A stretch of 64,000 nt of DNA from Planctomycetaceae bacterium (lineage in GTDB: Bacteria > Planctomycetota > Phycisphaerae > Tepidisphaerales > Tepidisphaeraceae): the NCBI GenBank assembly GCA_027487775.1, contig JAIYCY010000021.1, forward strand, positions 124,001 through 188,000, written 5' to 3'. Made by a program: the position numbers and the translations under genes. How positions within the stretch are numbered: position 1 is the first letter of the stretch; each line of letters opens with the position of its first letter. The notes under the pieces are model-generated. The model saw only the letters and a list, made by a program, of their open reading frames with translations, had not been told where the DNA came from and made no database searches. This document shows positions 16,206 through 49,263 of the stretch, in pieces.

Positions 16206-18476
16206 TCATCGAGGGGAATCGCTCGATGCGGGCTCGCCCATGATGATGCCGCGCCCGTTGGTGCCGATGTAGACGCGTCCGAAGATGCGCGGATCGCCCA
16301 CGGTGGCAAAGCAGAGGTTGCCCCAGCGGTTGCCTCCGTCGTTGAGTCGGACCCAGGTGCGTCCTGCGTCGGTGGAGCGGTAGACGCCGTACCAGCCGTT
16401 GATCACGCCCGTCATGAAGATCGTGGGGTAGTCGCTTCCGGGTGCGGCTTTGCCGAAGCCGACGCTTTCGGCGGTGGTGACACCTGCGACCTTCTCGATC
16501 GTGTTGAAGGCGTCGTTGGTGCGCCAGAGGCCCCACCGGTCGGCAGGCACCCACGAATGGCCTGCTTGTCCGAAGACGGCGCGCGGGTTGCGCAGGTGGT
16601 CGACGCCTGGGAGTAGCGCCGCGGGCGTGAACGTCGCGCCGCCGTCGACACTTCGATAGAACTCGATTGTTTTCGATCCAGCGGGCAGGGTCTCGTTGGT
16701 CGTGTTGCGTTGCGCATCGCGCGGCGCACGCGGGACGTTGATGCTCAGCGCGTAGACGATGTGAGGATCGACCCGGTCGGACCAGACATGCCGCGTCTCG
16801 GGCGGCAAACCTTGAGCGAGCTGCCATGTCGAGCCGCGATCGATCGTGACAAACACGGGTTGATCGGCAGGCTTCACCAGCAGCGCCGAGCCGTCGGCGG
16901 TCAGCGCGACGTCCGACGCATGAATGACCCGGCCGTTGGTGGGGGGGAGCGGGATGGGCGCCCAAGAGACGCCGTTGTCGGTCGACAGCGCGAGATATTC
17001 GTTGCCGCGATTCCCTCGCACGACCAGCTCGGGCCGCAACTCAGCGAAGTCGAGTGCGTTCACCTGCCCGACACGCGGGTTCTTGTAGTCGCCCGAGGGC
17101 GGCGAGACCGAGAGATCTTCGTGACGGAATCCGCCGATGTCACGCATCGCGCTGAGCAGATGCGCGCCCTCGGGCGGACTGATGAGGTCGAGCACGGCGA
17201 CTTCTTCGATACCATCGGCGCCGATGACAAAGCGTGCCGGTTCACCGCGATCGACGGCGCTGAGGTTGTCGGTCCGCATGATGCCGTTGCCCGTCGTGAA
17301 CATCAGGCGATCAGAGCGGTGCGGGTCGATCTCGACGTCGCCCATCCAGTGCGCGCGGTTGGTGAACGGCGCGAGGGATTTGTCGATCTCTGCAGTGTGG
17401 TAGACGCTTCGCCAGGTCGCGCCGCCATCGGTGGTGCGCCAGAGATCGTCCTTGGCGGCCCACCTGCAGATGGAGCTGACGACAACGATCTGCGGGTCGT
17501 GAGGGTCGAGCGCGAGTCCCGCGTAGCCGAAGCCCTGCTCGCCGTTGACGCGTGGGCGCACGGGCGTGATGTCGGTCCAGACGCCGTCGGGCGACCGCTT
17601 CCACACGGCCCCGTCACCGATCCCGTTCGGGCCGTCCTTGTTGGAGTATGTGATGTAGAGTGTTCCGTCGGCGGCGAGCTTCATGTGGTGCGGCACGAGC
17701 GCGGGCGGCTGGCCTTCGAGAGGCGTCCATGTAGCGCCGTGATCATCGCTTCGGTAGATGCTGGGCAGGGTCGTCTGAGTGGTGGTTGCGACGTAGAGGG
17801 TGGGCGTCGGTCGACCGGGTTGGCTGCTTGTCGCGTCGAACAGGACGATGCCGAGATTCGCGGGCTTGTCGTCGACGTTCACCTCGAAGGAATCGACCTT
17901 CTGCCATATGGTTCCGCGATCGTTGCTGCGCCAAAGGCCGGCATAGCGGCTCGCGAAGAAGAGCGTGTCGGCATTGTTGGGGTCGACTGCGAGGCGTTCG
18001 CCGATGGATCGACCGCCCCAGTTGGCGGCGCACTTAAAGGGCAGCGGGAAGCGCTCCCACGTCGCCCCGCGGTCATTTGAGCGAAGAAACTCCCCGTTGC
18101 CCGCCCAGGCGGCCGCCTCGCTGCCGATCGCGAGGTAGACGCGGTCGGGGTTCTGCGCGTCGAGCGCGAGAGTCTCGATCCCCAGTTGCTGATAGTCGGT
18201 CAGGAAGTCGGTGAGCGGGACCCATTTCTGCGACGGTTCGTCAAAGCGATACGCGCCACCCATGTCGGTCCGGGCATACACGACATCACGCGCCGTCGGG
18301 TGGTAGATGATGCCCGTAACGAATCCGCCGCCGATGATTCGAACGTTCGACCATTCGTAAGCGGCCTGCGTCGCCACCGTCGCGTGAGTCGAACTGCAAG
18401 CAAGACCGAAGCAAGCGAGCGTTGCGATACCAAACCGGACGATCATCCCAGATCGGCGAGTTGACGAAGTCCTCAT
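16206..18476 (-). CDS. GH74 endo-xyloglucanase-like enzyme (copy A)
   Basis: 756 residues from ATG 18476, preceded by GGAGGA at ideal spacing; the frame stays open further upstream but has no better start. There is a signal peptide-like N-terminus, possibly cleaved near ATVATQA. The mature part is two seven-bladed propellers built of Asp-box-like blades (SNDRGATWERF, TDGGATWRSV, STDNGVSW, STDAGRTW). Diagnostic GH74 segments are YARTDMGGAYRFD near the start and MGDVEIDPHRSDRLM in the middle; the Asp residues in these two regions are the catalytic pair in characterised GH74 enzymes (recalled). GH74 cleaves beta-1,4-glucan backbones of xyloglucan. Unlike copy B it has no dockerin tail. Its promoter carries the TACTACGTAGTA operator. 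Confidence 0.9.
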   Translation of the reverse strand: MRTSSTRRSGMIVRFGIATLACFGLACSSTHATVATQAAYEWSNVRIIGGGFVTGIIYHPTARDVVYARTDMGGAYRFDEPSQKWVPLTDFLTDYQQLGIETLALDAQNPDRVYLAIGSEAAAWAGNGEFLRSNDRGATWERFPLPFKCAANWGGRSIGERLAVDPNNADTLFFASRYAGLWRSNDRGTIWQKVDSFEVNVDDKPANLGIVLFDATSSQPGRPTPTLYVATTTQTTLPSIYRSDDHGATWTPLEGQPPALVPHHMKLAADGTLYITYSNKDGPNGIGDGAVWKRSPDGVWTDITPVRPRVNGEQGFGYAGLALDPHDPQIVVVSSICRWAAKDDLWRTTDGGATWRSVYHTAEIDKSLAPFTNRAHWMGDVEIDPHRSDRLMFTTGNGIMRTDNLSAVDRGEPARFVIGADGIEEVAVLDLISPPEGAHLLSAMRDIGGFRHEDLSVSPPSGDYKNPRVGQVNALDFAELRPELVVRGNRGNEYLALSTDNGVSWAPIPLPPTNGRVIHASDVALTADGSALLVKPADQPVFVTIDRGSTWQLAQGLPPETRHVWSDRVDPHIVYALSINVPRAPRDAQRNTTNETLPAGSKTIEFYRSVDGGATFTPAALLPGVDHLRNPRAVFGQAGHSWVPADRWGLWRTNDAFNTIEKVAGVTTAESVGFGKAAPGSDYPTIFMTGVINGWYGVYRSTDAGRTWVRLNDGGNRWGNLCFATVGDPRIFGRVYIGTNGRGIIMGEPASSDSPR

Positions 18477-18570: not shown

Positions 18571-18607
18571 TACTACGTAGTATACGCGAGCCCGTCCGGC
18601 TGGCCAA
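18571..18607 (-). promoter_or_regulatory. Promoter with overlapping palindromic operator, upstream of GH74-A
   Basis: Read on the minus strand: TTGGCC (18602-18607), 17-base spacer, TATACT (18579-18584), with the perfect palindrome TACTACGTAGTA (18571-18582) overlapping the -10 box. It lies ~95 bases upstream of the GH74-A ATG. The same palindrome and the same offset to the -10 box occur at 40018-40031. Confidence 0.7.
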
Positions 18608-21593: not shown

Positions 21594-22469
21594 TCACGTC
21601 GATCGCCCCACACGACTCGGCGGCACGCCAAACACGCTCTTGAACTGTCTCGAAAAGTGGAATGGATTCTGGTACCCCAACTCGTCGGATACTTCCCCCA
21701 CCGACCGTCCTTCACGAAGCATCGCTGCTGCGCATGACGCCCGGTGGCGCACGAGGAGACGGTAGGGCGTTGTGCTGTCGAACTGTTTGAAGAGTCTGCA
21801 CATGTACGATGCGGTGACTCCGCAGCGATGACTCAACTCGCCCAGACTCCGCACGAGGCTCGCCGATTTCTCAAGCTCACGACGACAGCGCAAGTAGTTC
21901 TCAAATGCTTCGGATGATCCCGCCATGGCACCGCCTGTGGCTCGATCAGCCAGTCGCCAGACGATTGCTTCGGTCAAAGCGCGACAGGTCTCGTGTGCAT
22001 AGGCACCCCCGTCAAGGCCCGCGCGAATCAACTCATCGAACAAGGCCACGACGCGATCCGGCAACCCGCTGCGCCCGACAGCACCCGCTGTGACGGTTGA
22101 CTCACGCAAAAGCCGGCGCGCGCCCACGCCCTCAAGATCGACAAAATACTTCACCATCGGCAAGTGCTCATCGGCCGTGATTCGATGGGGCGTGCGGCGG
22201 TCGTAGACGAAAAAACTGCCCGCACCCAGCTCATAACGCACGCCCGCGAGCCACAATTCCCCATGCCCGGCCGCAACGAACTCGATTCCGATGTACGGAA
22301 ACGACTGCCTGTCGATCAGATAACCTCGGCCCGTACGCTCGCGCCCTGCTGAGATCACGCGAAGCTTTGACCCACGGACCGCTTGCAGCGCGAATCGACG
22401 TGCTTCGAAGACCTGAGAAGAAAAGAAAGTGGGCAGTGCTTCTGATCTCATGTGCGCAAGATTAGACAT
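21594..22469 (-). CDS. AraC-family transcriptional regulator
   Basis: About 291 residues if the ATG at 22469 is used; the frame is open to 22730 and no candidate start has a strong ribosome site, so the N-terminus is uncertain (22451 and 22493 are alternatives). The N-terminal ~130 residues form a cupin-like ligand domain (FPYIGIEFVAAGHGELWL, GAGSFFVYDRRTPHRI). The C-terminal ~100 residues carry two helix-turn-helix units: LGELSHRCGVTASYMCRLFK and VGEVSDELGYQNPFHFSRQF, followed by GVPPS. It is divergent from the GH86-like gene at 22864, which makes that gene its likely target. AraC regulators with this layout usually sense a sugar. Confidence 0.85.
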   Translation of the reverse strand: MSNLAHMRSEALPTFFSSQVFEARRFALQAVRGSKLRVISAGRERTGRGYLIDRQSFPYIGIEFVAAGHGELWLAGVRYELGAGSFFVYDRRTPHRITADEHLPMVKYFVDLEGVGARRLLRESTVTAGAVGRSGLPDRVVALFDELIRAGLDGGAYAHETCRALTEAIVWRLADRATGGAMAGSSEAFENYLRCRRELEKSASLVRSLGELSHRCGVTASYMCRLFKQFDSTTPYRLLVRHRASCAAAMLREGRSVGEVSDELGYQNPFHFSRQFKSVFGVPPSRVGRST

Positions 22470-22773
22470 GCGGCGGCGATCCGGGCAAAGCATCTCACCT
22501 TCAACACTGCCCCGGACTGGAGTGCTGTTCCTCCAGCGGAATCCGGGCGGCCGATATGCCGCGCATTCTGTCCGAAAGTTCGACAACGTCAGGATGCAGC
22601 AGATTCGTCGGAGAGACACGATGGGTATGATTTTGCCCTCAAAACACACAGGATCCGCAATCCCTGATGCTGGCCCGGCTCCCGGTCGGACGTTGATCAC
22701 AAATCGATAGCGTGGTTTTGAGTCACCCATTGACCTTCCGTCATCACGGGCCCGCTGAAGTGCGACGCAAACG

Positions 22774-28453: not shown

Positions 28454-31267
28454 TCATTTCGCCCGGCACAAAGTCGCCCTTGAACGTCGTGTTGCAATGA
28501 GAGCCAGAGTCCCAATCGTGCTCGCCAAGACCGGCTCGGGAACCAACGTGATCGATGTCTGTAGATGCATCCACGCAAGTAGATCATTAGTACCGGGATC
28601 GATCGCCTGTGGATAAGACTGTGATACACCGACTGAAGCTATGGACGCGTTGTAGAATCGAGCAAGCAGCAGCAGATCGACGAAATCGACGATGCCATCG
28701 TGACTGAAGTCGCCCCCGCTCCAAGTCGCACCGGACGGGAGATTATAGTTTCTGGCAAGAGCCAGAAGGTCTTGAAAGTCCACGCGGCCATCCAGATTGG
28801 CGTCGCCTGCCAACGTGTATCGCACGATGATCGATGACGAATCGAGCGCCACCCCACCAAAATGACTAAGGCCGAGACTCGATTGCTCTGCGAAGCCAAG
28901 TCTCATGGCGTCGGTGGTCATCGAACTGTGAATTCGACCGTCGCGAATCATCTGTTGAATCGTCTGGAGCGGCGACGAAGAACTGTAGTCGAGGATCATC
29001 GCGTTGTTGACCAGATCAAGTCGCCCGCCGGGCAGGATCGACAGCGACCGGACCAAGAGCGTTCGCGAGCCGTTGGCCGCGAGTTGAACTGTTCCGGAGC
29101 TGCCGATATGCATCGCCGCCGAATTGAGCTGTGACGCTCCGAACACGAGTGCACCCGAGTTGACGCTGGTCGTGCCGCTATAGGTGTTGGCTCCGCTGAG
29201 CGTCAATGTTCCCAGACCCGTCTTTGTAAATCCTCCGGCACCCGCCAAGGGACCCGTGATCGAGAATGAATGCCCATTGGTGTTGATCGTGCCGTTGGCG
29301 AGTCCAAATGAGCCGCCCTTGCTCGTCACGACCGGCGCGGTGATCGAAAGAGTACCGCCCTCGAAACGCAAGATGTCGCCAGTACCTCCGCCCAGCGCGT
29401 TGATGCTGTTGATGCTGACCGTGCCTTGTCGAAAGATCACCGATCCCTTAAACGGCGTATTGTTGCCCGTCATGATGACCGTGCCGGCTCCAGCTTTGAT
29501 GATCTGACCCACACCGTTCGAATTGACGCCTCGAACCTGACCACTCAGGAAGAGTGTGCCCCCTCCGTCAAGCGTGAGAACGTGCTGCTGTACATCAATC
29601 GGACCGCTGAGCGTCAGCGATCCACCCAGGCTCGCAGTGCCGGAAGCGATCGTCGCGTGATCCGCAAGCGTGATCGGTCCGGGAAACGTCGCGGCCGAGC
29701 CGATCAAGTCGATCGCGCCGAGACGGGCGGGAATTCCAAACGATGCGTTCCCACGACCTCGCAAAGTCACCGGCTCGGGCTGCGTATAGATCACATCACC
29801 AAAGACGAGCGACGGCGAGCCGAAGTCGGAGGTCTGAGTCATGTTGATGCCCGCGACCGACGATCCGAGTGCGCCGTCTGCATGGACTTCGATCGCGCCG
29901 TTCCGGTGCTCGATCACACCTGTAAAAGCGTTGGCGACATGAAACGAGAGAGTCCCCTGACCGCCCTTGGTGATCGATCCAATCCCAGATGAAATCGCTC
30001 CGCGAAATCTGACCGGTCCGACCGTCAATACATTGAGCGGCGTATTCGGGTTCGCAGCACTCAATGCGCCGTCGAGAAACAACGTCACGCCGTTGGTCCC
30101 GCCCAGAGCGCTGATGCCTGAGTAGTTGCTGAACTGAAGCCGGCGCTGCGCCACGATGTCCGCCGAGATGCGAAGACTTTGAGGCGTATCGACATTCACA
30201 TTGATCCCACCCACCGCGGCGTTGTCAGACATCGTCGCGCTGGTTGCGCCCAGCAGCAGCCGACCCGGACCCGCAATCGTGATCGCGCCAGTCGTTCCGC
30301 CCTGCACCGTGACTTCCTGTACCGGTTGATCCGTTTCGAGTGAGATCGTCCCAGTTGCCGATGCCGTGTTCAATATCGCAGCACGACCGCTTCCCGGCAC
30401 TCCGTCCGGCCCCCAGTTGCTCACCTGATTCCAGGACTTGTTGCTCCCGCCACCGATCCAACCTGGCTTCTGATACACACGCACATAGTCGACCAGCTTC
30501 ACGTCACCATTGGCAATCGCATTGCTTGAGGTCAATCCCACCGTCCAGAGCGCTGTACCAAGAATGGGTGATTGCGGCACGAGTCCTTCAAGGCTGTTCA
30601 CCTGCGGTGCGGTGAATGTATGCATGAGATTGCCATTCAGATACGTGCGTATGACGTTGTCGGTGCCCCAGTCCCATGCATAAATGTTCATCGACCCCGA
30701 AAGATCCGGCGTGCTGATGGGTTGTTCGGTGGTGAAACGCCTGCTCGAATTGTGGTCGATGATGCTGGCGGTATAGAGCCCGGTCGTACGCGTCGAGGCA
30801 GTCGCCCACGTGCCCCACGCCTCAGGAGCGTCGATCTCAAAGCTGTCAACTCCATCCAAACTCACCCCGGAAATCGAACTCGACCAGAAATTGGAATTGG
30901 TGTACCGCCAGCGCGCGATCTGCATCCGTGCTTCCCAATAGCCAAACCGTTGTGCGTGCCGGCCTGTTACGATGGAACAGGTCCACTCCGGAATACTGTC
31001 GGCATTGATGTCCTGATAAATCGTCGTCTGACGAAGCATCCCGCCATCCACCGCGTTGTTACCCGCGTGATTCCGATAGAGCCAGGTGCTACCCGAAGGA
31101 TAGTTGATGATCGAACTGTTCCATCTCATTGCATCCAGCGATGAGCCGTTGAACTCATCGCTGAACGACGGTGTCGCCAGATAGCCCGCAGGCACCTGAG
31201 CGTTCACCGGTGCGGCAAAGGTCGCAGCCGCGATCACGATAGCGAGCCCGTGTCCTCGTCGATTCAT
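28454..31267 (-). CDS. GH16 domain fused to autotransporter-type beta-repeats, dockerin-like repeats and PEP-CTERM
   Basis: 937 residues. Signal peptide to ~residue 23 (APVNAQ). Residues ~30-285 are a GH16 domain: FSDEFNGSSLD, FGYWEARMQ, FWSSSISG, catalytic FEIDAPE (E144, D146, E149) and VDYVRVYQ at its end. Residues ~290-790 are autotransporter-associated beta-strand repeats (GAGGFTKTGLGTLTLSGAN, GGQGTLSFHVANAFTG). Residues ~817-875 hold a pair of dockerin-like calcium-loop repeats ([39 protein letters not shown]). VPEP near residue 910, a hydrophobic stretch and RRSR form a PEP-CTERM tail. The enzyme is thus built onto a beta-solenoid stalk with two potential anchoring tails. It is the second gene of the four-gene run; the ribosome site is weak. 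Confidence 0.85.
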   Translation of the reverse strand: MNRRGHGLAIVIAAATFAAPVNAQVPAGYLATPSFSDEFNGSSLDAMRWNSSIINYPSGSTWLYRNHAGNNAVDGGMLRQTTIYQDINADSIPEWTCSIVTGRHAQRFGYWEARMQIARWRYTNSNFWSSSISGVSLDGVDSFEIDAPEAWGTWATASTRTTGLYTASIIDHNSSRRFTTEQPISTPDLSGSMNIYAWDWGTDNVIRTYLNGNLMHTFTAPQVNSLEGLVPQSPILGTALWTVGLTSSNAIANGDVKLVDYVRVYQKPGWIGGGSNKSWNQVSNWGPDGVPGSGRAAILNTASATGTISLETDQPVQEVTVQGGTTGAITIAGPGRLLLGATSATMSDNAAVGGINVNVDTPQSLRISADIVAQRRLQFSNYSGISALGGTNGVTLFLDGALSAANPNTPLNVLTVGPVRFRGAISSGIGSITKGGQGTLSFHVANAFTGVIEHRNGAIEVHADGALGSSVAGINMTQTSDFGSPSLVFGDVIYTQPEPVTLRGRGNASFGIPARLGAIDLIGSAATFPGPITLADHATIASGTASLGGSLTLSGPIDVQQHVLTLDGGGTLFLSGQVRGVNSNGVGQIIKAGAGTVIMTGNNTPFKGSVIFRQGTVSINSINALGGGTGDILRFEGGTLSITAPVVTSKGGSFGLANGTINTNGHSFSITGPLAGAGGFTKTGLGTLTLSGANTYSGTTSVNSGALVFGASQLNSAAMHIGSSGTVQLAANGSRTLLVRSLSILPGGRLDLVNNAMILDYSSSSPLQTIQQMIRDGRIHSSMTTDAMRLGFAEQSSLGLSHFGGVALDSSSIIVRYTLAGDANLDGRVDFQDLLALARNYNLPSGATWSGGDFSHDGIVDFVDLLLLARFYNASIASVGVSQSYPQAIDPGTNDLLAWMHLQTSITLVPEPVLASTIGTLALIATRRSRATLCRAK

Positions 31268-31324
31268 GCCGTCATCCCGAAGTGAAACAAATGTTTAGGC
31301 TTGACGATTCAACCCGACGATCTC

Positions 31325-34300
31325 TCAGTTGGACACATCCATGCGACGTCGGCGCATCACGATGACCCCGCCCGCCAAGAGCGTTAGGCAAGCGGTCGGC
31401 TCAGGCGCCAACGCCAACGCCCAATCGCCTTCGAACGTGCTCCCAAGGGACGCGTTGTAGCTCCTGGCAAGCCTCAATAGATCACTGAAGTTGACCAGAC
31501 CGTCGTAGTTGGAGTCACCAGTCGCCCAAGTTTGGGTCGAAGCGCTGTTGTAGCTACGCGCCAAGGCGAGCAGATCAACGAAGTTCACCGTGCGATCAAG
31601 GTTGGAATCTCCGTAAAGCGTGTATGCCACCGTCAAACTTGAGGTGACCTCATCATGGATCCAGCCGAGCCCGCGACTCGCATCCGCTGTCCCCGACTGA
31701 AACTGCCCGATCGAGAAATTGCTCGCAAAGCCAGCCGTCAGTGCCGCCTGAACCAATGACACAGGCGAAGGGCGATCCGTGTAATCAAGAACAAGCCGAC
31801 CACCCCGAATGTCTGTCACACGCGTTGGATCCAACGCCACACTCAAAGCCGCTCCCTCCAATCTCAAGGCTCCAGCTTCGATCGTCGTACCACCACTGAA
31901 ACTGCCCGATCCGCTCAGGGTTTGAACCCCCGAACCGACCTTGCGAATCGCCAACGTGCCACCCCCGGCGGAGTGATCGATGAGCTCGCCCGCGTATGAA
32001 GCCGTCGCGTTGTTGCTCCCTAACGTCAACGTTGCCGATGTCGCGGATGCATTGTTCAAGACACGGCCAGCAACATCGCCCGCCGAGCCGGAAAGACCGT
32101 TGATCGTGATGCTCGAACCATTGAGATCGAGAGTTCCGCCGGTCGTCGCGCCACCATTGACATGCACGTCGCCGCGGCCTGATCCACTCGGAACGGCCGA
32201 CCCGCTCCCAATGACAACCGTCCCTCCGTTGATCACCGTATCGCCCGCGTAATCATTGACACCCGCGAGGCGGTACCGTGACCCGGCAATGCCCTCAAAC
32301 GAGACGTCGCCCGAGCCAGTGATGCTACTATCCAAATGAATCGTCTGGGGCAGATTCTGGATCGTGCTGAAGTTCAAATAGCCAGGCGCACGTCGACCCA
32401 CTGCCAGCGTCGAGCCCGCTCCCAGCACGATGCTGCTCTCCGCCAACTCCAAAGTCGTCGGCGTGTTCGTCGTGCTTGTCGGACTCTCGGCGGTCGAAAC
32501 ACGCAAAACGGACCCGGACTCCACTCCAATCGGACCCGTGAAACGATTCGTGTACTGCTTCTGCTCCTGACTAAAACTCGTCAGAGATGAATCACCCGAA
32601 AAGGTCAGCGGCTCCGCAACGGACACCGTCGACCCATTGATCTGACCAAAGTTCTGAATCAGAAGAATCGCGCTCTGCACTTCCGTCCCACGCATTGTCG
32701 AACCGAGTGAATCGCCCCAGCGAATGTCAAGCGTTCCGGCCGTGACAGTGACCTTCCCGGTGAAGTCGTTGTTCGGATTCGTGTTGTTGGCACGGCCTAA
32801 CGCGAGCACACCGTTGCCGCTCTTGGTCCAGTCCCCGGTTCCAGAGACCTTTCCCCCAATACGCCAGGTGATCCCCGAAGTCGTTTCAACCGCAATGCTA
32901 CTGCCCGACGTGTTGATCGAAACGCCTTGCGCATCGTTGGTCACCGTCGCAGAACCCGCGTAAGTGAGACGCCCTCCAGAGAGTGTCACTGAATTGGCGG
33001 CCGGATTGATCGCAGCAAGCGTCGAAAATCGCAGCTCACCGCCGTTCACCTGAATGCCGCCCGTCGCAGTACCGCTTGTCGCACCCAAAACCAACCGCCC
33101 CGCATTCACGATCAGTCCGCCACTGTTCGCGATGGGACCGCTTAGCGTCACACCACCAGATCCGTTCTTCGTCAATGTTCCAGAGCCGCCGATACTTCCG
33201 CCCGCAATCGTGTAGTTCTGGGTCGAGTTGTTGAATGTCGTGCTGCTTGGTGAGACCGTTCCCCCGACGATCGTCAGATTGGTGTTGCTCGCCGTGTCGT
33301 CGAACGTAACCGCGTCCTCGGCATAGAACCGCTCCGCCGCCGCACCATTGATCCAGTTGGCGGTCGTCGCAGTGTCCCACGACCCGCTGAGATTACCCTT
33401 CCATGTCAGGCTGAGCGGTGTCGCGACTCCGGGAGTAACCACCAGACTCGTTCCGGCATTCAGATACTCAAGCGTGTCGCCCCGGCCGGCTGTGAAGGAG
33501 GAAAGCGGAATCGATCCGAATCCGCCACTGATACTCAAGGCAGTGTAGGGCACACCCACCGTGGTCGAACTCGTCGGAACAAGAACGACCGAACCCAGCA
33601 TCGACATGCTTGAAGCCGAAACCGCAGATGAGGTCGACGGATCCACCATGAGCGTCGCAGTGCCCGTGCCAATCGTCAACGCACCACCGATCGAACCCTC
33701 ACCGCTCAACGTCCCGCCGCCGTTCACCGTGACCCCAGCGCTGCTTGCACCTGTGAGATTCAACGTGCCGCCTTCGTTGATCGTGACTGCCGACGCGATC
33801 GTGCCTGGGACATTCACCGCCCCGCCGTTGATGATCGTTGCGCCCGTGTATGTCTTGTCCCCATTCAGATTCAACGTGCCGGCGGACTGCTTCACAAGCC
33901 CAACCCCGCCCTCAATCCGAAGCGATGCCGAAGCGGTCCCGCCATTGACCGCCAAGGTCCCCGTCCCGCTGATTCTCGAGACACCGTTCGCGCCCGAACC
34001 CGTGCCGCCTAACGTTGTGATGCTCACGTTCCCGCCTATCACAACATTCACCGTGTTGCTCAACGTCATCGCGCCATAGCTCTGCGTGTCCGACATCGAT
34101 TCTCCGAGTACCAGCCGTGCAGACGCCAGCGGATTGGTCCCCGATCCCGCAGCTGCGATTGTCAAATTGGTCGTGGTGGTCTGATTCCCTCCAATCACTA
34201 AATCACCGCCCCATGCCGTACCCACCGTTTGCTGCATGATTGCGATGTTGCTCAAGGCACCGTCCAAACGCGTCACCGAGCCGGCAACACCCTCAAAACG

Positions 34301-34852
34301 AATACCCAAATCGCCCGCCGTCGTCGATGCCGTCTTTCCGATCGAACCATTGATGTCCAGCGTCCGCGTCGGGCTGTTGTTGCGAATGCTCAAAAGACGA
34401 TTGGCTGTGTTGGTTCCATCAATCAGCATCGGCGCGTTGATCGACATCACTCCGCCCGCCGCACTGCTCATCGTGAGGTTGTAGCTGGTGCTTCCATTGA
34501 CGCTGCGAATGACAAACGCGCCCCCGCCAGGTTCAATGGTGAATGCAGCCGTCCGATTCAACGTAACACTCGCGAATGACACGTCCGTGTTGATGGTCGC
34601 CAGAGATCCCCCGGTCCCAAACACTATGGCCGATGTTCCACCGGTCAGATTGGGCAACTGTCCAGGCGCCGCCCCGTCCCAGTTGTCGGGCAAATCGATG
34701 TTGGTATTCGCGCCACCGCCGCCGTCCCAAGTCGTACCCGCGTTGGCAATGCGTACCCCGAACGCACAGCTTAATGTCGTCGCAAACGCAACTGCTCGGA
34801 TCACCGCTCGAGCAGATTCGACACGAGTACGAGAGCAAGACTGTTGCCGCAT
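31325..34852 (-). CDS. Autotransporter-associated beta-repeat protein with dockerin-like repeats and PEP-CTERM
   Basis: 1,175 residues with a strong GGAGGAACC before the ATG. There is an N-terminal signal peptide of ~38 residues (ending IANAGTTWDGGG). The body consists of beta-solenoid repeats with the PATR signature (GTGTLAVNGGTAS, KQSAGTLNLNGDKTYTG, GTLTKNGSGGVTLSG, KVGSGVQTLSGSGSFSGGTT). Near residues 1080-1140 are two dockerin-like repeats (GDSNLDRTVNFVDLLALARS, GDSNYDGLVNFSDLLRLARS). The C-terminus is APEPTACLTLL plus a helix and MRRRR, a PEP-CTERM signal. It is first in the minus-strand run and divergent from the XylR-type regulator. It has no catalytic domain that I can see; a structural or scaffold surface role is inferred. 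Confidence 0.85.
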   Translation of the reverse strand: MRQQSCSRTRVESARAVIRAVAFATTLSCAFGVRIANAGTTWDGGGGANTNIDLPDNWDGAAPGQLPNLTGGTSAIVFGTGGSLATINTDVSFASVTLNRTAAFTIEPGGGAFVIRSVNGSTSYNLTMSSAAGGVMSINAPMLIDGTNTANRLLSIRNNSPTRTLDINGSIGKTASTTAGDLGIRFEGVAGSVTRLDGALSNIAIMQQTVGTAWGGDLVIGGNQTTTTNLTIAAAGSGTNPLASARLVLGESMSDTQSYGAMTLSNTVNVVIGGNVSITTLGGTGSGANGVSRISGTGTLAVNGGTASASLRIEGGVGLVKQSAGTLNLNGDKTYTGATIINGGAVNVPGTIASAVTINEGGTLNLTGASSAGVTVNGGGTLSGEGSIGGALTIGTGTATLMVDPSTSSAVSASSMSMLGSVVLVPTSSTTVGVPYTALSISGGFGSIPLSSFTAGRGDTLEYLNAGTSLVVTPGVATPLSLTWKGNLSGSWDTATTANWINGAAAERFYAEDAVTFDDTASNTNLTIVGGTVSPSSTTFNNSTQNYTIAGGSIGGSGTLTKNGSGGVTLSGPIANSGGLIVNAGRLVLGATSGTATGGIQVNGGELRFSTLAAINPAANSVTLSGGRLTYAGSATVTNDAQGVSINTSGSSIAVETTSGITWRIGGKVSGTGDWTKSGNGVLALGRANNTNPNNDFTGKVTVTAGTLDIRWGDSLGSTMRGTEVQSAILLIQNFGQINGSTVSVAEPLTFSGDSSLTSFSQEQKQYTNRFTGPIGVESGSVLRVSTAESPTSTTNTPTTLELAESSIVLGAGSTLAVGRRAPGYLNFSTIQNLPQTIHLDSSITGSGDVSFEGIAGSRYRLAGVNDYAGDTVINGGTVVIGSGSAVPSGSGRGDVHVNGGATTGGTLDLNGSSITINGLSGSAGDVAGRVLNNASATSATLTLGSNNATASYAGELIDHSAGGGTLAIRKVGSGVQTLSGSGSFSGGTTIEAGALRLEGAALSVALDPTRVTDIRGGRLVLDYTDRPSPVSLVQAALTAGFASNFSIGQFQSGTADASRGLGWIHDEVTSSLTVAYTLYGDSNLDRTVNFVDLLALARSYNSASTQTWATGDSNYDGLVNFSDLLRLARSYNASLGSTFEGDWALALAPEPTACLTLLAGGVIVMRRRRMDVSN

Positions 34853-35061: not shown

Positions 35062-36237
35062 ATGGCAGGTGAACGAACATCCCGCTGCAAACTGCCCCGT
35101 GTCGCAGTCATGATCGAAACCTCAACGTCATGGGGACGTCGACTGATTGAAGGCATAACAGACTACTCACGCGTCTTCGGCCCGTGGACCCTGTACCTCG
35201 AGCCCCGGGGAATCGATGAAGCCGAGACGTTTCCGTCCGGTTGGACCGGCGACGGAATCATCGCCCGGGTACGCACCCCCCAATACGCCCGACGACTCGA
35301 AAGAACCCGGCTGCCCATCGTGAATGTCTCTGGCATCGTCGATCCAAACATACGCTTCCCCAGAGTCCAAACATCCGAACGCGAAATCGCACAACTCGCA
35401 CTCGATCACCTCCGCGCACGAGGATTCGAACATTTCGCCTATTGCGGCGTTGCCGTTAGAAGATACGTCGCGCAACGCGCTCATGTCTTCGAAGAAGTCG
35501 TACGCAACGCCGGATTTGATTGCCATATCTACCTCGGCGATTCCAACTCGAATCGCAGGGGAAATGTCTCCACGGAACTCAATGCACGCGCAGCATGGCT
35601 GAAGTCACTACCCCTGCCCGTCGCAGTCTCCACGTTCTCCGCCATCCACGGTAGACGAGTCGCAGAAGCCGCCGCACTGGCGGGCCTGAACGTTCCCGAC
35701 GATGTCGCCATCATCACGGTCGATACCGACGATCTCATCGGTGAACTCATCCACCCGCCACTGTCCGCCGTACAACTCGCCACCGAACGCAGCGGTTTCG
35801 AGGCCGCCAGAATGCTCCATGCACTCATGCAAAGAAAAAAAGTCGACCCGGTCGTCAATGTCCCACCACTCGGTATCGCAGAACGACAGTCCACCGATGT
35901 TCTGGCCATTCAGGACACCGAAATCAGCAATGCCCTCAGATTCATCCGCCAAAACGCCAATCGACCCATCAATGTCGAGCAGGTTCTTGAACAAGTCTCC
36001 GTCTCAAGACGCGTACTTGAACGTCGATTCCGCGCACTCTTACAAAGAACACCCGCACAAGAAATACGTCGCACCCACCTCGAGCGCGCCAAGCTACTGC
36101 TCGCCCAGACCAACATGTCCGTCCCCGAAGTCGCGCGCGCGAGCGGATTCACCTACGTCGAACACATGATCCCGCTCTTCCGAAAACACATGGGCGTCAC
36201 TCCCCTCGCCTTCAGACGACTGGTCCAAACACAATAA
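35062..36237 (+). CDS. XylR-type regulator (LacI-like sensor domain + AraC DNA-binding domain)
   Basis: 391 residues; AAGGTG precedes the ATG. It starts directly with the periplasmic-binding-protein-like sensor (VAVMIETSTSWGRRLIEGI, the hallmark opening of XylR proteins) and has no N-terminal LacI helix-turn-helix. The sensor runs to about residue 280 (GLNVPDDVAIITVDTDD, LSAVQLATERSGFEAA). Residues ~288-388 are an AraC domain: INVEQVLEQVSVSRRVLERR, VPEVARASGFTYVEHMIPLF and GVTPLAFRR. Characterised homologues bind a pentose or other sugar and activate transcription. It lies between the beta-repeat/GH16 run and the GH43-like gene and probably controls both. XylR-type proteins usually bind direct or near-direct half-sites, so it is not the obvious owner of the TACTACGTAGTA palindrome. 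Confidence 0.9.
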   Translation: MAGERTSRCKLPRVAVMIETSTSWGRRLIEGITDYSRVFGPWTLYLEPRGIDEAETFPSGWTGDGIIARVRTPQYARRLERTRLPIVNVSGIVDPNIRFPRVQTSEREIAQLALDHLRARGFEHFAYCGVAVRRYVAQRAHVFEEVVRNAGFDCHIYLGDSNSNRRGNVSTELNARAAWLKSLPLPVAVSTFSAIHGRRVAEAAALAGLNVPDDVAIITVDTDDLIGELIHPPLSAVQLATERSGFEAARMLHALMQRKKVDPVVNVPPLGIAERQSTDVLAIQDTEISNALRFIRQNANRPINVEQVLEQVSVSRRVLERRFRALLQRTPAQEIRRTHLERAKLLLAQTNMSVPEVARASGFTYVEHMIPLFRKHMGVTPLAFRRLVQTQ

Positions 36238-37366: not shown

Positions 37367-39883
37367 CTACGCATTCGCACGAACCGTATGAATCGTCAGA
37401 CCCGTCAGGTCACGCTTCGCAGCACCCTTCAGTAAACTCACCACATAACCAACCACAATGCATGCCAGCGTCGCACTCGGAGCAAGCAAACTCCAATGCA
37501 TTGACGTAAATCGCTCGGCAAACAACGTCCACACCACACTCGCAACAGCCCCGCAAACCGCACCCACACCGTTCGTGCGCGTCGTGAATATCCCGAGCGC
37601 ATAAACGCCCACAAAACCCCCACCCAATAACGCCGCGATCCGATTCCACGTCTCGATCATCGATCGCACCTCAAACGTCGCCATCCACAACGCGATCATC
37701 ATGCCAATCGCACCCGCCACATAAGACGCCGACTTCATCAATCGCAAACGCCGACGATCATCCGTTGACTTCCTGAATCGACGATAGAAGTCCTCGCTCA
37801 AGAGCACCGAAACACTGTTCATGCTGCTACTCAACGTCGACATCGCCGCCGCGAATATCGCCGCCACCAAAATCCCCGCCACGCCCGTCGGCAATACATC
37901 GACAATAAATCGCGGAACCAACTGATCATTGCTCATCGTCGGATCAAGCTTCGAAGGATGAGCTCGATAAAAAAAGAATAACGATAGCCCCACTAACGTC
38001 ACCAGCACCGCAACCGTAACACCAAGACATGCAAACGTGTACTGCAGTCGCTTCACGTCACGAATCGGCGTCGCATAAACACGCTGCACGATCGGCTGAT
38101 CTCCGGCAAATCCCGCCACATTCAGTACCGCCGCCAGCAACGCAATCCAGATCGCCATCACCGTCCAGTCCCACGTCCACAATACAGGCAGAAACTTCCC
38201 GTACTGTGCACCCACGCTCATCACCTCAGACATCCCGCCCGGAACACCCGAAAATGCGTAAATGATCATGATGAGCGGCCCTAGAAACATCACCAGACCC
38301 TGCACAACATCCGTCCAAATCACCGCCTCAAATCCCCCCGCCGACGTGTAGATCGTCGTGAGCACCCCCATCAACAAAATGCTCACATACACGTCCAACC
38401 CCGTCGTCGCACTTAACGCGATCGAAGGAAGAAGCAGCACAATGCTCATGCGACCAAGCGTCTGCAGACCAATGCACTGCGCACTGGCCAGCAACCGCAA
38501 AGACGTGCTGAATCGACGCTCCAAGTATTCGTACGTACTCGTAATCTCCAGCTTGCGCAACAACGGCACAATGAAGTGCGCCTGAATCACCGCCTGCGGA
38601 AGCATGAAGAACACCGGCAACAGAAACACCAGATTCGCCGTAAACCCCAACACAGGAATCGCCATCAGACTGATCGAACTCACGCCCGTGGCATACATGC
38701 TCATCGCGCCCGCCCACCAAGGCACCTTCCGATTGCCAAGCGAAAACTCGTCGCTCGTCGTCTGACGCTTCGCAAAGTATAAACCGATCCCTGCAATCCC
38801 CGCGAAATACAAACCAATCGCCACATAATCGAGCCATGCCAGCGAACCACTCGGCTTCGGCAAGCCAATCGATTCAACCGATCCACCAACGTGCACCATG
38901 CCATCCCGCGTACTCACCAGTGAACCACTTACCGACCTGGCTGCACCCAGCGATTGCAAGGCTTCGATCGGCGTCCACGTGTCGGTCACAACGTGATACG
39001 CCAGCGCAATCCCCTCCGCCGACGATTCCGGTACCCACCCTTCACCCACATCAGCCCGTGCATCCCCTCCCATCAAGAGCGTATGACTCTGACCAGTCTG
39101 AATCGCACTCGAATCACTCAACGCAACCGGCAGCGACACACCACGTGTCCATCCGCGAACCGTCGTACCATCGACCGGCGATGGACGATACGTCCACACT
39201 TCGTCCAACGCTCGATACACAATGGCCCCCCCTGCATCGACTTCACGCCTACGCCCGCCCATCACATGCAACATATTGAAACTCGACGTCGCCACTGCCC
39301 CGATACGACCAGTTCCAGGCAACGGCGCAAGCTCCTGCCAATTCCCCCGCGGCGACTTCAGCGAGATCGCAAACAACCGATTGCTCATCTCCCCCTCTTC
39401 AAGCAAACCGCCGACAACATAAAGCGTCGAACCCACCACCGACGCACTCGCATGACTGATCAAAACCGGAAAGTCCGCCAATCGCTCCGATTCAAGCGCT
39501 CCGCCCGACCAACTCAGTCGCTGAACAACCCTCGAACGCCGACCCCAGCCATCAACCCCACCCACTAAAATGAACTCCTCACCAAACTCCGCCTTTGCTG
39601 CAAAGTTCAACGCCTCCACCTTCGTCAACTCCACCCGCAACCACCTCCCAGACGAAGCTCCGCCCGAACGATCCGCCTCATACGATGTCGCCAGCCCGCC
39701 CTCATCCAATCCGATCGCAAAGAGCCGACCCGCACACTCAACCATCGCATGCCCAGCCCCAGGCGAGCCTTCGGTCGATCCCGTCGATTGAGCAATGGCA
39801 ATCTGTCCCCGCGGCACCACCAGCCATGCAAAGACCATAAGCCAAAGCAACGCAGAACTTCGTCGAATTCGCTGTCGAAACAT
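37367..39883 (-). CDS. Kelch beta-propeller fused to a sodium:solute symporter
   Basis: 838 residues from ATG 39883 (GAGGTG upstream); the frame also allows GTG 39892. A signal sequence (SSALLWLMVFAWLVV) leads into a kelch-type propeller of ~310 residues (ILVGGVDGWGRRS, LYVVGGLLEEGEMSNRLF, LHVMGGRRREVDAGG, HTLLMGGDARADVGEGW), as in NanM-like proteins. From about residue 350 a full sodium:solute symporter begins (WLDYVAIGLYFAGIAGIGL, TSDEFSLGNRKVPWWAGAMS, TSTYEYLERRF) with ~13 membrane helices. The propeller would lie outside the cytoplasm and may capture or modify the sugar before uptake. It is convergent with the GH43-like gene (21 bases apart) and its promoter region shares the palindromic operator at 40020-40031. 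I infer it imports products of the secreted hydrolases. Confidence 0.9.
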   Translation of the reverse strand: MFRQRIRRSSALLWLMVFAWLVVPRGQIAIAQSTGSTEGSPGAGHAMVECAGRLFAIGLDEGGLATSYEADRSGGASSGRWLRVELTKVEALNFAAKAEFGEEFILVGGVDGWGRRSRVVQRLSWSGGALESERLADFPVLISHASASVVGSTLYVVGGLLEEGEMSNRLFAISLKSPRGNWQELAPLPGTGRIGAVATSSFNMLHVMGGRRREVDAGGAIVYRALDEVWTYRPSPVDGTTVRGWTRGVSLPVALSDSSAIQTGQSHTLLMGGDARADVGEGWVPESSAEGIALAYHVVTDTWTPIEALQSLGAARSVSGSLVSTRDGMVHVGGSVESIGLPKPSGSLAWLDYVAIGLYFAGIAGIGLYFAKRQTTSDEFSLGNRKVPWWAGAMSMYATGVSSISLMAIPVLGFTANLVFLLPVFFMLPQAVIQAHFIVPLLRKLEITSTYEYLERRFSTSLRLLASAQCIGLQTLGRMSIVLLLPSIALSATTGLDVYVSILLMGVLTTIYTSAGGFEAVIWTDVVQGLVMFLGPLIMIIYAFSGVPGGMSEVMSVGAQYGKFLPVLWTWDWTVMAIWIALLAAVLNVAGFAGDQPIVQRVYATPIRDVKRLQYTFACLGVTVAVLVTLVGLSLFFFYRAHPSKLDPTMSNDQLVPRFIVDVLPTGVAGILVAAIFAAAMSTLSSSMNSVSVLLSEDFYRRFRKSTDDRRRLRLMKSASYVAGAIGMMIALWMATFEVRSMIETWNRIAALLGGGFVGVYALGIFTTRTNGVGAVCGAVASVVWTLFAERFTSMHWSLLAPSATLACIVVGYVVSLLKGAAKRDLTGLTIHTVRANA

Positions 39884-39995: not shown

Positions 39996-40044
39996 TTCAT
40001 TTCCGCAATTTTTTCAATATACTACGTAGTAATTTATCCTCCAA
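39996..40044. promoter_or_regulatory. Divergent promoters sharing the palindrome TACTACGTAGTA
   Basis: The palindrome is at 40020-40031. Plus strand: TATACT at 40018-40023 overlapping it, with a weak TTCATT (39996-40001) 16 bases upstream, reading toward the SDR remnant and GH43-like gene. Minus strand: TATATT (40016-40021) with TTGGAG (40039-40044), 17-base spacer, reading toward the kelch/symporter gene. The TATACTACGTAGTA arrangement is identical to that at 18571-18584. Confidence 0.65.
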
Positions 40045-40117: not shown

Positions 40118-40687
40118 ATGAAACTCGCCGGTCAAGGAGTTCTGATCACCGCCGCAGCAACAGGCATCGGCGAAGCTTGTGCAAGACAACCCGCAGCCGA
40201 CGGCGCTCGCGTCGGTGCACTCGACATCCTCATCAATCATGCAGGCCTCACACTCCCCGCCAGTATCGTCCAAGACACTTCCGACTCTGAATTCGATCGA
40301 CTCATCGCCGTCAACCTGCGTGGAACATTCAACGGCTGTCGATTCGCCTATCCACACCTCGGTACCTCACGCGGAAACGTCCTGAACATCAGCATTATGG
40401 CTGGAATCACCGGCCAGGAACGCCATGCCGTCTACGCCGCAACCAAGGGCGCCATCAACGCACTCACCGAATCCTGCGCCGTCGATTGGGGCAAATCAGA
40501 CGTCCGATGCGACGCACTCTGCCCCGCAGGCGTCTGGACCGACGCGCTCCGCGCCTGGGCCAACGTCCAAGCCGATCCGCGGGCCATCGACGACTACCTC
40601 AATCGCATTTTTGCTCGCAGAAGGTGCGATGGCTCGCGGAACTGTGCCGATACGAATAGCCAGAAGTTGAACACAGACTCAAACTGA
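40118..40687 (+). pseudogene. Decayed short-chain dehydrogenase/reductase
   Basis: 189 codons from ATG 40118. Recognisable SDR motifs remain: LITAAATGIGEACARQ (nucleotide site), DILINHAGLTLPAS (NNAG variant), NISIMAGITG (Ser) and YAATKGAINAL (Tyr-x3-Lys). However, the ~45 residues normally lying between the second strand (GARVGALD) and the NNAG strand are missing, so ALD runs directly into ILINHAG. After about residue 165 the normal C-terminus (FLASDEA-x-x-x-TG, GG) is replaced by a basic tail; a better match (IAFLLAEGA) appears in another frame. The sequence is therefore deleted and frameshifted. It is the first frame downstream of the palindromic promoter; the GH43-like gene follows 10 bases later and may be the only functional product of this transcript. 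Confidence 0.65.
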
Positions 40688-42351: not shown

Positions 42352-43806
42352 TCATTCCAAATCCAGCCGCAACACATACACCTGAGCCGAACACGCAGCC
42401 GGCATCTTCACACGCAATCCGTCGGTCTCCTGCGACCACGCAAGCGGCTCGCCGTGGCCCAATAGCACCACACGCCCGATCTTCCGAGTCAGAAGACGCA
42501 AATCCGTCGCCAGAGAGCGCACCAATACCGTTTGATTGACAGTTCCATCGGACTTACCAAAGCCGATCACATACAAAGTGTCACGCCCGCGCGTCGTGAA
42601 TCGAAAATCACGATCCGTAAAGTCGCCACGCAGCGTATCGGTGAACCCGCCTTCAGGAACCTGTGTCGGTCCTTCACCAAACACCTTCCAAGGCCGCGTC
42701 CCGTAGATCGCCTCGCCGTTGACTTCAAGCCACGCGCCGATATCGAGCAGAATGCGTTGATCTTCGGCGGGGATCGTGCCATCAGCCTTCGGACCGATGT
42801 TCAGCAGCAAAGCACCGTTCTTACTCACGACATCCACCAGATCGCCAATGATCGAGGTGGACGTCTTGTAGACGTTACCCTCCGTGTAACACCACGAATT
42901 CTTCGTCACGCTCGTATCGTTCTGCCAGTAAAGCGGACGAATGTCGGCAAGTTGCCCGCGCTCCAAGTCGAGGACGGCACTCCGCGGCGTATACGCGTCG
43001 TTCTTGTAATTGATCGCAACCCCGCCGTTGCCCCACTCCTGCCCCCGGTTGTAATAATACGCCGCAAACTCACGCAAATACGACTTCATGCCGGGCTGCT
43101 CGATCCACCAGTCAAACCAAAACAACTGCGGCTGATACTTGTCCACCAATTCACAACAACGCACCAGCCAGTCCTCCATAAACTCCTTCGAAGGCGGACA
43201 ATGCTCCGGCGCAGCAGGCCCGTAGAGATCCGCGTGCTGACCTGCCTTCACGTCGCTTTCAAATGCCTGCCCGCCATTGAAGAACCACCAATGCTCAATC
43301 CGATGACTCGATGCTCCAAAAATCAAACCGTGCTGACGAACCGCTTGCGATAACTCCCCGACGATATCCCGCTTCGGCCCCATCTTCGCAGCGCACCAGT
43401 CGCTCAACTCGGTGTCATACATCGCAAAGCCGTCATGATGCTCCGCCACCGGAACCACAAACCGCGCGCCCGATTGCTTGAACAGTTTCGCCCACGCCTC
43501 CGCGTCAAACTGCTCGGCCCGGAACATCGGGATGAAGTCCTTGTAGCCGAACTGCGATTGTAGCCCATAGGTCTTGACGTGGTGCTCGTACGCCCTGTGC
43601 CCCTTGATGTACATGTTGCGCGGGTACCACTCGCTATCGAAGGCAGGCACGGCGTAGACGCCCCAGTGGATGAAGATGCCGAACTTCGCATCTTCGTACC
43701 ATCGCGGAATGCCCACTTGCTCCAGCGATTCCCATTGGGGTGTAAACGACCCGCGTAGGATCGTTTTGCGGATGGTGGAGAGTCGGGAAGGCTGGTCGAT
43801 CGTCAT
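42352..43806 (-). CDS. GH29 alpha-L-fucosidase-type enzyme, cytoplasmic (copy A)
   Basis: 484 residues from ATG 43806, preceded by GGAGGA; upstream in-frame sequence overlaps the previous gene and is rejected. No signal peptide. Typical GH29 barrel segments: AKFGIFIHWGVYAVPAFDSE, RFVVPVAEHHDGFAMYDTE, FGASSHRIEHWWF, QLFWFDWWIEQP with the nucleophile Asp after FWF, SKNGALLLNIGPKADGTIP, and a C-terminal sandwich (TDTLRGDFTDRDFRFTTRG). GH29 releases alpha-L-fucose, or alpha-L-galactose in some members. It starts 22 bases after the GH95-like gene. Being cytoplasmic it probably acts on imported fucosylated oligosaccharides, complementing the secreted copy at 47505. Confidence 0.9.
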   Translation of the reverse strand: MTIDQPSRLSTIRKTILRGSFTPQWESLEQVGIPRWYEDAKFGIFIHWGVYAVPAFDSEWYPRNMYIKGHRAYEHHVKTYGLQSQFGYKDFIPMFRAEQFDAEAWAKLFKQSGARFVVPVAEHHDGFAMYDTELSDWCAAKMGPKRDIVGELSQAVRQHGLIFGASSHRIEHWWFFNGGQAFESDVKAGQHADLYGPAAPEHCPPSKEFMEDWLVRCCELVDKYQPQLFWFDWWIEQPGMKSYLREFAAYYYNRGQEWGNGGVAINYKNDAYTPRSAVLDLERGQLADIRPLYWQNDTSVTKNSWCYTEGNVYKTSTSIIGDLVDVVSKNGALLLNIGPKADGTIPAEDQRILLDIGAWLEVNGEAIYGTRPWKVFGEGPTQVPEGGFTDTLRGDFTDRDFRFTTRGRDTLYVIGFGKSDGTVNQTVLVRSLATDLRLLTRKIGRVVLLGHGEPLAWSQETDGLRVKMPAACSAQVYVLRLDLE

Positions 43807-43828
43807 AAAATCCTCCAAGATTGGGCGG

Positions 43829-46039
43829 TCAGATGATTTGCGTAACCATCCCGCCGACCACCGATAGGTTCCGCACTTCATTCGGCCCCGGATCGTGGTA
43901 GCGGAATACGCCGTCGCGCTCCGCACGCACAAGCAATCTTGTGAGTTTGCCCGCAGCGCGCGTTGCCGACACACGGAAGCCGCCCGGCAATGTGATGTCG
44001 TCGAATGAAACGGCGTCCCACCCGCTTGGGCACCCGGCAAAGAGAACGGTCACGCCCCGACGGTCGTGGGCAAGCAGGTCGAACACCGCCGCGCACGCGC
44101 CTTGACCGCCGTCGAGCTGCATCGCATTCCAGCTGCCGTCACTTCCGCCTGAGCTGCTCAGGATGCTCAGCCCCCGATGCAGCGCGTTGTGAAAGCCCGC
44201 ATGACCCTTGTTCACGAAATAGCACGCGAAGTGTTCCAGCATCATCACCGCCGCCACCGCATTGCCGTTGCGGGCGTGAATCTGGCTTGCCCAGCCGAAC
44301 GACCAACCCGCCCACCAGCCCGGGCCTTTCAACACCCATGCACGCAACGTACTGTCGACCACCTTGCGCCAAACTTCGCTTTGTGGATCGATCGATTCGA
44401 ACGGATAGATCCCAAACAGATGCGAGTGGTGCCGATGCGACTCTTCCAGCGGCGTGTTCTTCCAGAGCAAGATCGTGTCGCCCGCCGGGTGATTCCAGCC
44501 TCCCGCGCCCCGCGATTCGACGCAGGCGCGAGGAAGGTGATTTCGAATCTCCGTCCACTCGGATCGGTACGGAAGATTCAGCGCCGCGCAAGTGACCTCG
44601 AGTGCGTCGAGTAGAGCATGACACGCTGCAAGCTGCGCACTGGCGTTCTCTCCCCACGCATCGAAGCTCGACCCGCGGTATTCTGGCGAAACGGTCACCG
44701 GCAGGACATAGGACCCGTCGTCGCGTCGTTCGCTCATCGCGCGATAGACGTTCAACGCGCCCTCGAGCCAGGGTTGAACACGATCGCGAAGGAACGCGTC
44801 GTCTTCGAAGCCGTAACGCCACGCGTCAAACATCATCTTCGCGACCCACGCGGTGCAGGCATGATCCACCGTGCCGGTCCAGAAGCCGCCCATGTTGGTC
44901 CCCCGATCGTCGACTGCGTGAGGCAACATAAGCCCGTCACCTATGCCGCAGAATAGCCTCGCATTCTCGCGAAGCTGCGGCTCCCAGGCTAGAAGCATGT
45001 CCCAGAGCGGCCTCAAATGTGATCCAGCACCCGCGGGGTAAGCAGGGGCGTGGCAAAGCTGTACGTTGATGTTGAAGTGGAAGTCGCTCGCCCATGCGGG
45101 CAGGCCGTCGTCTTCGATCCACGGCCCCTGCAGACCGCACGCGACACCGTTGAGCGGGTTGGTGCTCGCGGCAAGCTTGTAGAGTCCGAATCGCGCGAGG
45201 TGGTTGACGATCGTGTTGGGCGTTGAGATGCGCGGTGCGGTTGCCCAAAACTGCGCCCACCACGCGCGACTTCGATTCGACATCGCTTCACCGCCGTCGC
45301 GCGAAGCACGCAGCGCCAATACGCTTGCCCCGTCGAACGCCGAATGCGCATCATCACCACGCTCGCTGGCGATGAAGAGCGTTCCGCCCGACCAGTACGC
45401 CGCGACGCCCATCGCAGGATCGGCGGGCAGCGCTTGTCCGAAGCCGCGGACGGTCTCGACCTCGAACGACTCAGGTTCTGGAAGGTCGCGCTTGTACCAG
45501 TCACCCTGGAAGGCCTCTGCCGGCTTGCAAAGTTGGTAGGACGGGATGATCGCCATCGGGAACGATGCCTTGCCCGCGCGGAGGATCAACACGGGCTCGG
45601 CGGTGGAGAGCTCGATGTGGATCGCGTCGCCCGATTGCAATCGCACCGTCGCGACGCCGCGGTTCATATCGAGCGAGGCGAAGTCGACGACATCGGGCAG
45701 CGTGACTTCGACACGCCCGACGGGCAGAATCGACGGCCGCATCGGACGCGCCGAACCGCCGCCGTTTTCGAAGATCGCGCGGAGGCCTGCCTCGTCCTTG
45801 GATTCCAGCAGCGAGCGAATCCGGGCGAACGACATCTCGCTCGTCCAACGCATGCCCCCACGATGATCCCAGAAATCCGGCCGACCCAACGTGAGCCGGA
45901 GCGTGCGGTCCTTGCCCCAGATCAACACGCCCATCCGCCCGTTGCCAAGCGGGATTCCTTCGTGACAGGATAACAGCGGCCAACCCCAAGTCAGTTCATC
46001 GGCTTTCATGTAGCAGCCCTGTTGCAGAAAGTGGATCAT
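43829..46039 (-). CDS. GH95-like (alpha/alpha)6 glycosidase
   Basis: 736 residues. The start ATG 46039 has only a weak ribosome site; ATG 46009 is an alternative. No signal peptide. N-terminal beta-sandwich: LSCHEGIPLGNGRMGVLIWG is the 'LP-x-GNG-x-x-G' motif seen in GH95, followed by LRLTLGRPDFWDHRGG. The barrel follows with FWTGTVDHACTAWVAKMMFD, VTVSPEYRGSSFDAWGENAS, HRHHSHLFGIYPFESID and GWSFGWASQIHARNGNA, matching the layout of GH95 catalytic barrels, and a C-terminal small sandwich (GPNEVRNLSV). The family includes alpha-L-fucosidases and alpha-L-galactosidases. The sequence is divergent from classical GH95, so a related unclassified family is possible. It is flanked by a propeller protein (15 bases upstream) and GH29-A (22 bases downstream) in one operon. 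Confidence 0.75.
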   Translation of the reverse strand: MIHFLQQGCYMKADELTWGWPLLSCHEGIPLGNGRMGVLIWGKDRTLRLTLGRPDFWDHRGGMRWTSEMSFARIRSLLESKDEAGLRAIFENGGGSARPMRPSILPVGRVEVTLPDVVDFASLDMNRGVATVRLQSGDAIHIELSTAEPVLILRAGKASFPMAIIPSYQLCKPAEAFQGDWYKRDLPEPESFEVETVRGFGQALPADPAMGVAAYWSGGTLFIASERGDDAHSAFDGASVLALRASRDGGEAMSNRSRAWWAQFWATAPRISTPNTIVNHLARFGLYKLAASTNPLNGVACGLQGPWIEDDGLPAWASDFHFNINVQLCHAPAYPAGAGSHLRPLWDMLLAWEPQLRENARLFCGIGDGLMLPHAVDDRGTNMGGFWTGTVDHACTAWVAKMMFDAWRYGFEDDAFLRDRVQPWLEGALNVYRAMSERRDDGSYVLPVTVSPEYRGSSFDAWGENASAQLAACHALLDALEVTCAALNLPYRSEWTEIRNHLPRACVESRGAGGWNHPAGDTILLWKNTPLEESHRHHSHLFGIYPFESIDPQSEVWRKVVDSTLRAWVLKGPGWWAGWSFGWASQIHARNGNAVAAVMMLEHFACYFVNKGHAGFHNALHRGLSILSSSGGSDGSWNAMQLDGGQGACAAVFDLLAHDRRGVTVLFAGCPSGWDAVSFDDITLPGGFRVSATRAAGKLTRLLVRAERDGVFRYHDPGPNEVRNLSVVGGMVTQII

Positions 46040-46054
46040 CGAGCATCACCGGTC

Positions 46055-47461: not shown

Positions 47462-47504
47462 GATCTTCCTTCGTTGTGATCGTCGATGCGATACAAGTCA
47501 CGCA

Positions 47505-49247: not shown

Positions 49248-49263
49248 CGAGTAATCCCTCTGT

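Follow-up and report, generated by a model that had tools for sequence, protein, structure and literature searches.

A candidate LacI-family operator shared by promoters of a planctomycete xyloglucan locus

Introduction

For 1173 of 1303 LacI-family regulators, the operator is an even palindrome centered on CG, and most operators are found 30-140 bp ahead of the start codon (PMC4052901). Residues 15 and 16 of the regulators correlate with site positions 5 and 4, respectively, and Arg20 correlates with G at position 6 (PMC2978694). The nearest described system to the one analysed here is that of Thermotoga maritima, in which GloR is the predicted LacI-family regulator of the xyloglucan cluster gloEFGKL-cel74-fucAI (PMC3750489). 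Planctomycetes carry very many glycan-degrading genes. Our literature search, with most subscription journals outside its scope, found no account of how planctomycete glycan loci are turned on, and a search for the 12-mer described below returned unrelated animal papers only.

Here, we analyse a palindrome that recurs in a planctomycete DNA stretch of 64,000 nucleotides (the window) and in the adjoining sequence of the same contig (C4; the window ends at C4:188000). Like GloR, the regulator predicted here is a local LacI-family protein encoded at a xyloglucan cluster with GH74 and fucosidase genes, a likeness of regulator type and cluster genes. Unlike GloR, it comes from a different phylum, its cluster has an SSF transporter instead of an ABC transporter, and its putative regulon spans ~57 kb with several promoters. 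AraR of Bacillus subtilis is similar in its TACGTA-core operator, its paired operators, and its sugar-responsive repression, which is presumed in our case, but AraR has a GntR-type helix-turn-helix, a DNA-binding fold other than that of the adjacent LacI protein (PMC4218819).

Results

Sites and their rarity

The palindrome TACTACGTAGTA occupies positions 18571-18582 (S1), where its center is 101 bp before the start codon of the GH74 xyloglucanase A gene (18476, minus strand). A second exact copy lies at 40020-40031 (S2), within a divergent intergenic region. At 60260-60271 (S3a), where the sequence is TTCTACGTAGAG, the 8-bp core CTACGTAG (at 60262) and a 10-bp palindrome remain. At 60302-60313 (S3b), with its center 42 bp from that of S3a, the sequence is TTCTTCGTAGTA, with two mismatches. 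Degenerate versions are found past the window end at C4:188926 (S5, ATTTACGTAGTA), C4:188880 (S6, TGCTACCTAGCA), and C4:199257 (S7, TGCTAGGTAGTA, imperfect). S1, S2, and S3a are even palindromes with a central CG, S3b and S5 are imperfect palindromes that keep the central CG, and S6 and S7 differ at the center and are without it. The half-site reads T6 A5 C4 T3 A2 C1, which is non-canonical for LacI. A further match, TACTTCGTAGGA at C4:172928 (48928 in the window), is inside a fucosidase gene and was taken as a chance occurrence.

The palindrome occurs beyond chance. The window contains four matches to TACTACGTAGTA at up to two mismatches, versus 0.12 expected. In the whole genome (4.1 Mb), there are two matches at up to one mismatch (18571 and 40020), both within the xyloglucan locus, versus 13 for the reversed control pattern. 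At up to two mismatches there are 20 places genome-wide, five of which fall inside the 57 kb from C4:142571 to C4:199268 (~1.4% of the genome), one of the five being inside a coding gene. The core CTACGTAG has six copies in 4.1 Mb, three of them in the 64-kb window; the copies on contigs C1 and C29, which are in open reading frames, and the one on C18 are not linked to the xyloglucan locus. Among 26 genomes of the order, a sparse set with no genome of the same genus, the exact motif is not conserved and has a single copy in G004. That the palindromes are a chance or mobile repeat without any regulatory role is hardly credible: just two copies are exact and the word is short, but it is rare genome-wide, placed at promoters, and confined to the locus.

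Placement on predicted promoters

Promoters were called as pairs of sigma-70 consensus -35 and -10 elements at a threshold of at least 8/12, and only 15 such pairs occur in 102 kb of contiguous sequence around the locus. The predicted GH74-A promoter (18579-18607, minus strand) consists of TTGGCC (18602-18607) and TATACT (18579-18584, plus-strand coordinates) separated by 17 bp, and S1 overlaps its -10 element; how strong a promoter with TTGGCC would be is a guess. At S2, the -10 element of a predicted plus-strand promoter (TATACT, 40018-40023) is overlapped in the same register as at S1, and the spacer of a predicted minus-strand promoter, TTGGAG-17-TATATT, is filled by the palindrome, which lets S2 cover the two divergent promoters. 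At S3, the predicted minus-strand promoter is TTGACA-16-TATTCT, with S3a directly after it and S3b just upstream of its -35 element. S5 and S6 flank a predicted promoter, TTGACG-16-TATATT, in the way that S3b and S3a flank that of S3. S7 accompanies the predicted promoter TTGCGA-17-TATGAT before a GH29 gene.

The operator center is 8-12 bp from the start of the -10 element at S1, S2, S3a, and S6, and 15 bp from it at the fifth promoter. By chance, a random position would lie 0-14 bp from a -10 start in 0.24% of cases and a non-coding position in 0.7%. The sites at -10 elements are ~74-143 bp before the start codons, and S3b is at 168 bp.

An earlier note on this DNA had described S1 as a palindrome overlapping TATACT with TTGGCC 17 bases upstream on the minus strand, a description that holds at 18571-18607. 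It had also reported two further sites with the same palindrome and geometry. The palindrome is indeed exact at 40020-40031, but only the core is present at 60260-60271, where the promoter geometry is the same and the site sits by a better promoter, TTGACA-16-TATTCT. The frequencies in coding sequence and before unrelated genes favor the proposal of an operator for the 12-mer, since 2/2 copies precede genes of the xyloglucan locus.

The positions of S3b and S5 upstream of -35 elements raise the question of whether a LacI protein binds the sites yet partly activates transcription. We give this very little chance of being right, because S3b and S5 each have a partner site at the -10 element, and promoters with a single site have it at the -10 element only.

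Genes behind the sites

The genes behind the sites form a predicted xyloglucan digestion locus. They encode two GH74 xyloglucanases, a YicI-like GH31 enzyme, GH95 and GH29 fucosidases, and an SSF transporter, and the locus also has a GH43 enzyme. GH74-A (16206-18476, minus strand) has a signal-peptide-like N-terminus, and its best match is the xyloglucan hydrolase 2cn2 (E 1e-158). Behind S2 are a fusion of a Kelch (NanM-like) domain to a sodium:solute symporter (37367-39883, minus strand), which is a probable sugar transporter, and a short-chain dehydrogenase gene (SDR; 40118-40687, plus strand). The minus-strand run behind S3 (42352-60140) encodes a large repeat protein, a DUF1559-like pseudopilin, GH31, GH74-B with a dockerin, F5/8-GH16, GH29, an unknown protein, GH95, and GH29. 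In this run, GH74-B matches GH74 xyloglucanase structures at E 5e-114, and the GH31 protein, a YicI-like alpha-xylosidase, has its YicI-family match at 3e-235. Past the window end are GH106, GH141-like, GH95, and double GH29 genes.

Several further features of these genes were observed. In the SDR, the adh_short profile is matched only in the second part, from position 74; in the protein, the Gly-rich motif runs straight into NAG, and ~40 residues of the N-terminal domain are seemingly absent. The gene is possibly decayed or internally deleted. Large PATR-repeat proteins are encoded at 28454-34852, with dockerin-like domains at their ends, and one is also GH16-like. In several planctomycete genomes, DUF1559/N-methyl pseudopilin-like genes recur as neighbors of LacI genes and of glycan loci (55903-57189 in the window; L019:18170-19207; G147 5625375-5626772; G004 C13:112434-113246; L057). 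Two tandem GH29 fucosidase domains are present in one gene at L019:8134-11250. TACGTA is absent from the promoters of GH74 relatives within the family; in the third GH74 gene of the same genome (contig C13), it overlaps the start codon and was judged unrelated.

The locus also contains the genes of a XylR-like regulator (35062-36237), which combines a LacI-like sensor with an AraC helix-turn-helix and adjoins the GH43 gene, and of an AraC-type protein (21594-22730). The XylR-type protein is a second regulator encoded in the same locus, and the palindrome is absent upstream of its gene. Their position inside the locus makes both proteins candidates for binding the palindrome. The prospect that either does so is slim: no site with up to three mismatches is found upstream of the XylR-like gene, the AraC-type gene, or the GH43 gene next to XylR, and AraC-type proteins usually recognize direct or asymmetric repeats, which also counts against them.

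A LacI-family gene beside the window

The earlier note had stated that no LacI or GntR protein is encoded here. A LacI-family gene is in fact present in the same gene cluster, at C4:189170-190192, and escaped notice because it begins 1.2 kb past the window end. The note's reading of the palindrome as a LacI-like operator with a central CG is supported. The PF00356 LacI helix-turn-helix is matched at C4:189188 with 44.3 bits versus a curated cut-off of 27. Residues 6-326 of the protein align to CcpA, sensor domain included (E 2e-22), and NCBIfam LacI models match it below their equivalog cut-offs. LacI relatives in an assembled-contig collection were distant Bacteroidota matches only. S5 and S6 lie between lacI and the divergent repeat-protein gene, S5 being ~0.24 kb before lacI. 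Autoregulation is found for 72% of LacI regulators. In the upstream region of this lacI, no operator lies on any obvious lacI promoter, and autoregulation is therefore unproven.

The present operator and protein appear to agree with the published LacI rules. As in LacI proteins of the TVSR group such as CcpA, the layout comprises a helix-turn-helix, a hinge, and a sensor, and the operator is an even palindrome with a central CG (PMC2978694). Unlike in that group, which is marked by Arg20 together with G at position 6, residue 20 is Leu, and the half-site has T/A at position 6 and T at position 3. The recognition helix, SQRTVSL, with Gln15, Arg16, and Leu20, is not of the canonical LacI type. 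Gln15 was not seen at any of the nine further LacI genes in this genome.

Covariation of recognition helix and operator core

What ties this LacI protein to this operator is the covariation between helix and core. Over its full sequence, G147 L067 is the closest homologue, at 41% identity. The helix SQMTVSYALRGSE of G147 L067 and G004 L056 is nearly identical to SQRTVSLCLAGSD of the protein at C4:189170, and TTTTACGTAACA is present in their own promoter regions, twice in G147 L067 and also in G004 L056, whose promoter region additionally carries TTTTACGTACAA. In the whole genomes of G147 and G004 (13.2 Mb), exact TTTTACGTAACA has three copies, only at those LacI genes.

We also compared unique LacI genes across the class. 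TACGTA lies within 500 bp upstream in 4/12 genes of the Gln15/non-Arg20 type versus 2/44 (p=0.016), in a count that left out the present locus. Other CG-centered hexamer palindromes gave nothing significant in the same set. In a phylum-wide LacI sample taken after the rule had been formed, TACGTA is found at 4/5 Gln15 genes and 0/3 others. With class and phylum combined, TACGTA is upstream of 8/19 Gln15 genes versus 2/45 others (p=0.0005); the Gln15 positives include two near-duplicate pairs, which lowers the effective number, and 11/19 Gln15 genes are without TACGTA within 500 bp.

Two genes of the phylum sample, with helices SQKTVSQ and SQRTVSQ, have AGTACGTACTA and GGTACGTACTA, which are close to the present site. 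In the Arg20-keeping planctomycete proteins L107 and L109, position 6 of GTTCACGTGAAC and GTTACCGGTAAC is G. Their own upstream regions contain clean operators: GTTCACGTGAAC twice for L107 (helix SHMTVSR) and GTTACCGGTAAC for L109 (helix TKMTVSR). For the present site, T at position 3, and with it the TACGTA core, would be due to Gln15. The G:C pair at position 4 would be due to Arg16 and the lack of G at position 6 to Leu in place of Arg at helix position 20, the pairings Leu20/T6, Arg16/G:C4, and Arg20/G6 being read from few cases.

The best rival is an AraR-type protein, with a GntR helix-turn-helix and a LacI-like sensor. The AraR box, At(T/A)tGTaCGTAcaa(A/T)T, has a TACGTA core with AT flanks and resembles ATTACTACGTAGTAAT (PMC4218819). 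AraR likewise uses paired in-phase operators, and two AraR-type proteins are encoded in the genome (C1:113998 and C11:84865). However, both genes are on other contigs, with TACGTA absent within ~1.5 kb on either side, and the locus itself has no GntR gene, the nearest match (C4:302444) being DeoR-like by sequence. Moreover, an AraR-type regulator would account neither for the LacI gene next to the sites nor for TACGTA covarying with LacI helices. We consider it improbable that the operator belongs to such a protein.

Discussion

Very likely, the palindrome serves as operator for a local repressor of the LacI family, the product of the gene at C4:189170-190192 within the same cluster. The earlier proposal of an operator shared by glycan genes and placed to block RNA polymerase is supported as a prediction.

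We infer the course of binding, repression, cooperation, and induction as follows. Without inducer, a LacI dimer would occupy sites resembling ATTACTACGTAGTAAT on or directly beside the -10 element and block transcription. Two of the promoters have a second site 42-46 bp away, on the upstream side of the -35 element, which may add cooperative binding. Release of the repressor would come from an inducer, probably a sugar derived from xyloglucan, and would switch on GH74-A, the symporter/SDR pair, and the S3 run with GH31, GH74-B, GH95, and GH29, as well as the repeat-protein gene that neighbors lacI and the GH29 gene further downstream.

This would be a regulon of a known type, with a local LacI repressor and a non-canonical operator, and the extension of the LacI recognition code that it suggests is testable. 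We propose, tentatively and with slightly less than even confidence, that planctomycete LacI proteins with Gln15 constitute a recognition class of their own for operators with a TACGTA core, in which helix position 16 chooses the next base pair, Arg or Lys going with G:C and Met or Val mostly with A:T. If true, the Gln15 class would extend the published LacI code past the Arg20 (TVSR) group. For the xyloglucan locus, naming one regulator, its candidate operator, and the genes concerned yields a regulon that can be tested directly. Beyond it, the helix-operator rule could serve operator prediction for many planctomycete LacI genes and, if the Gln15 class is real, regulon prediction across the large LacI expansions of planctomycetes.
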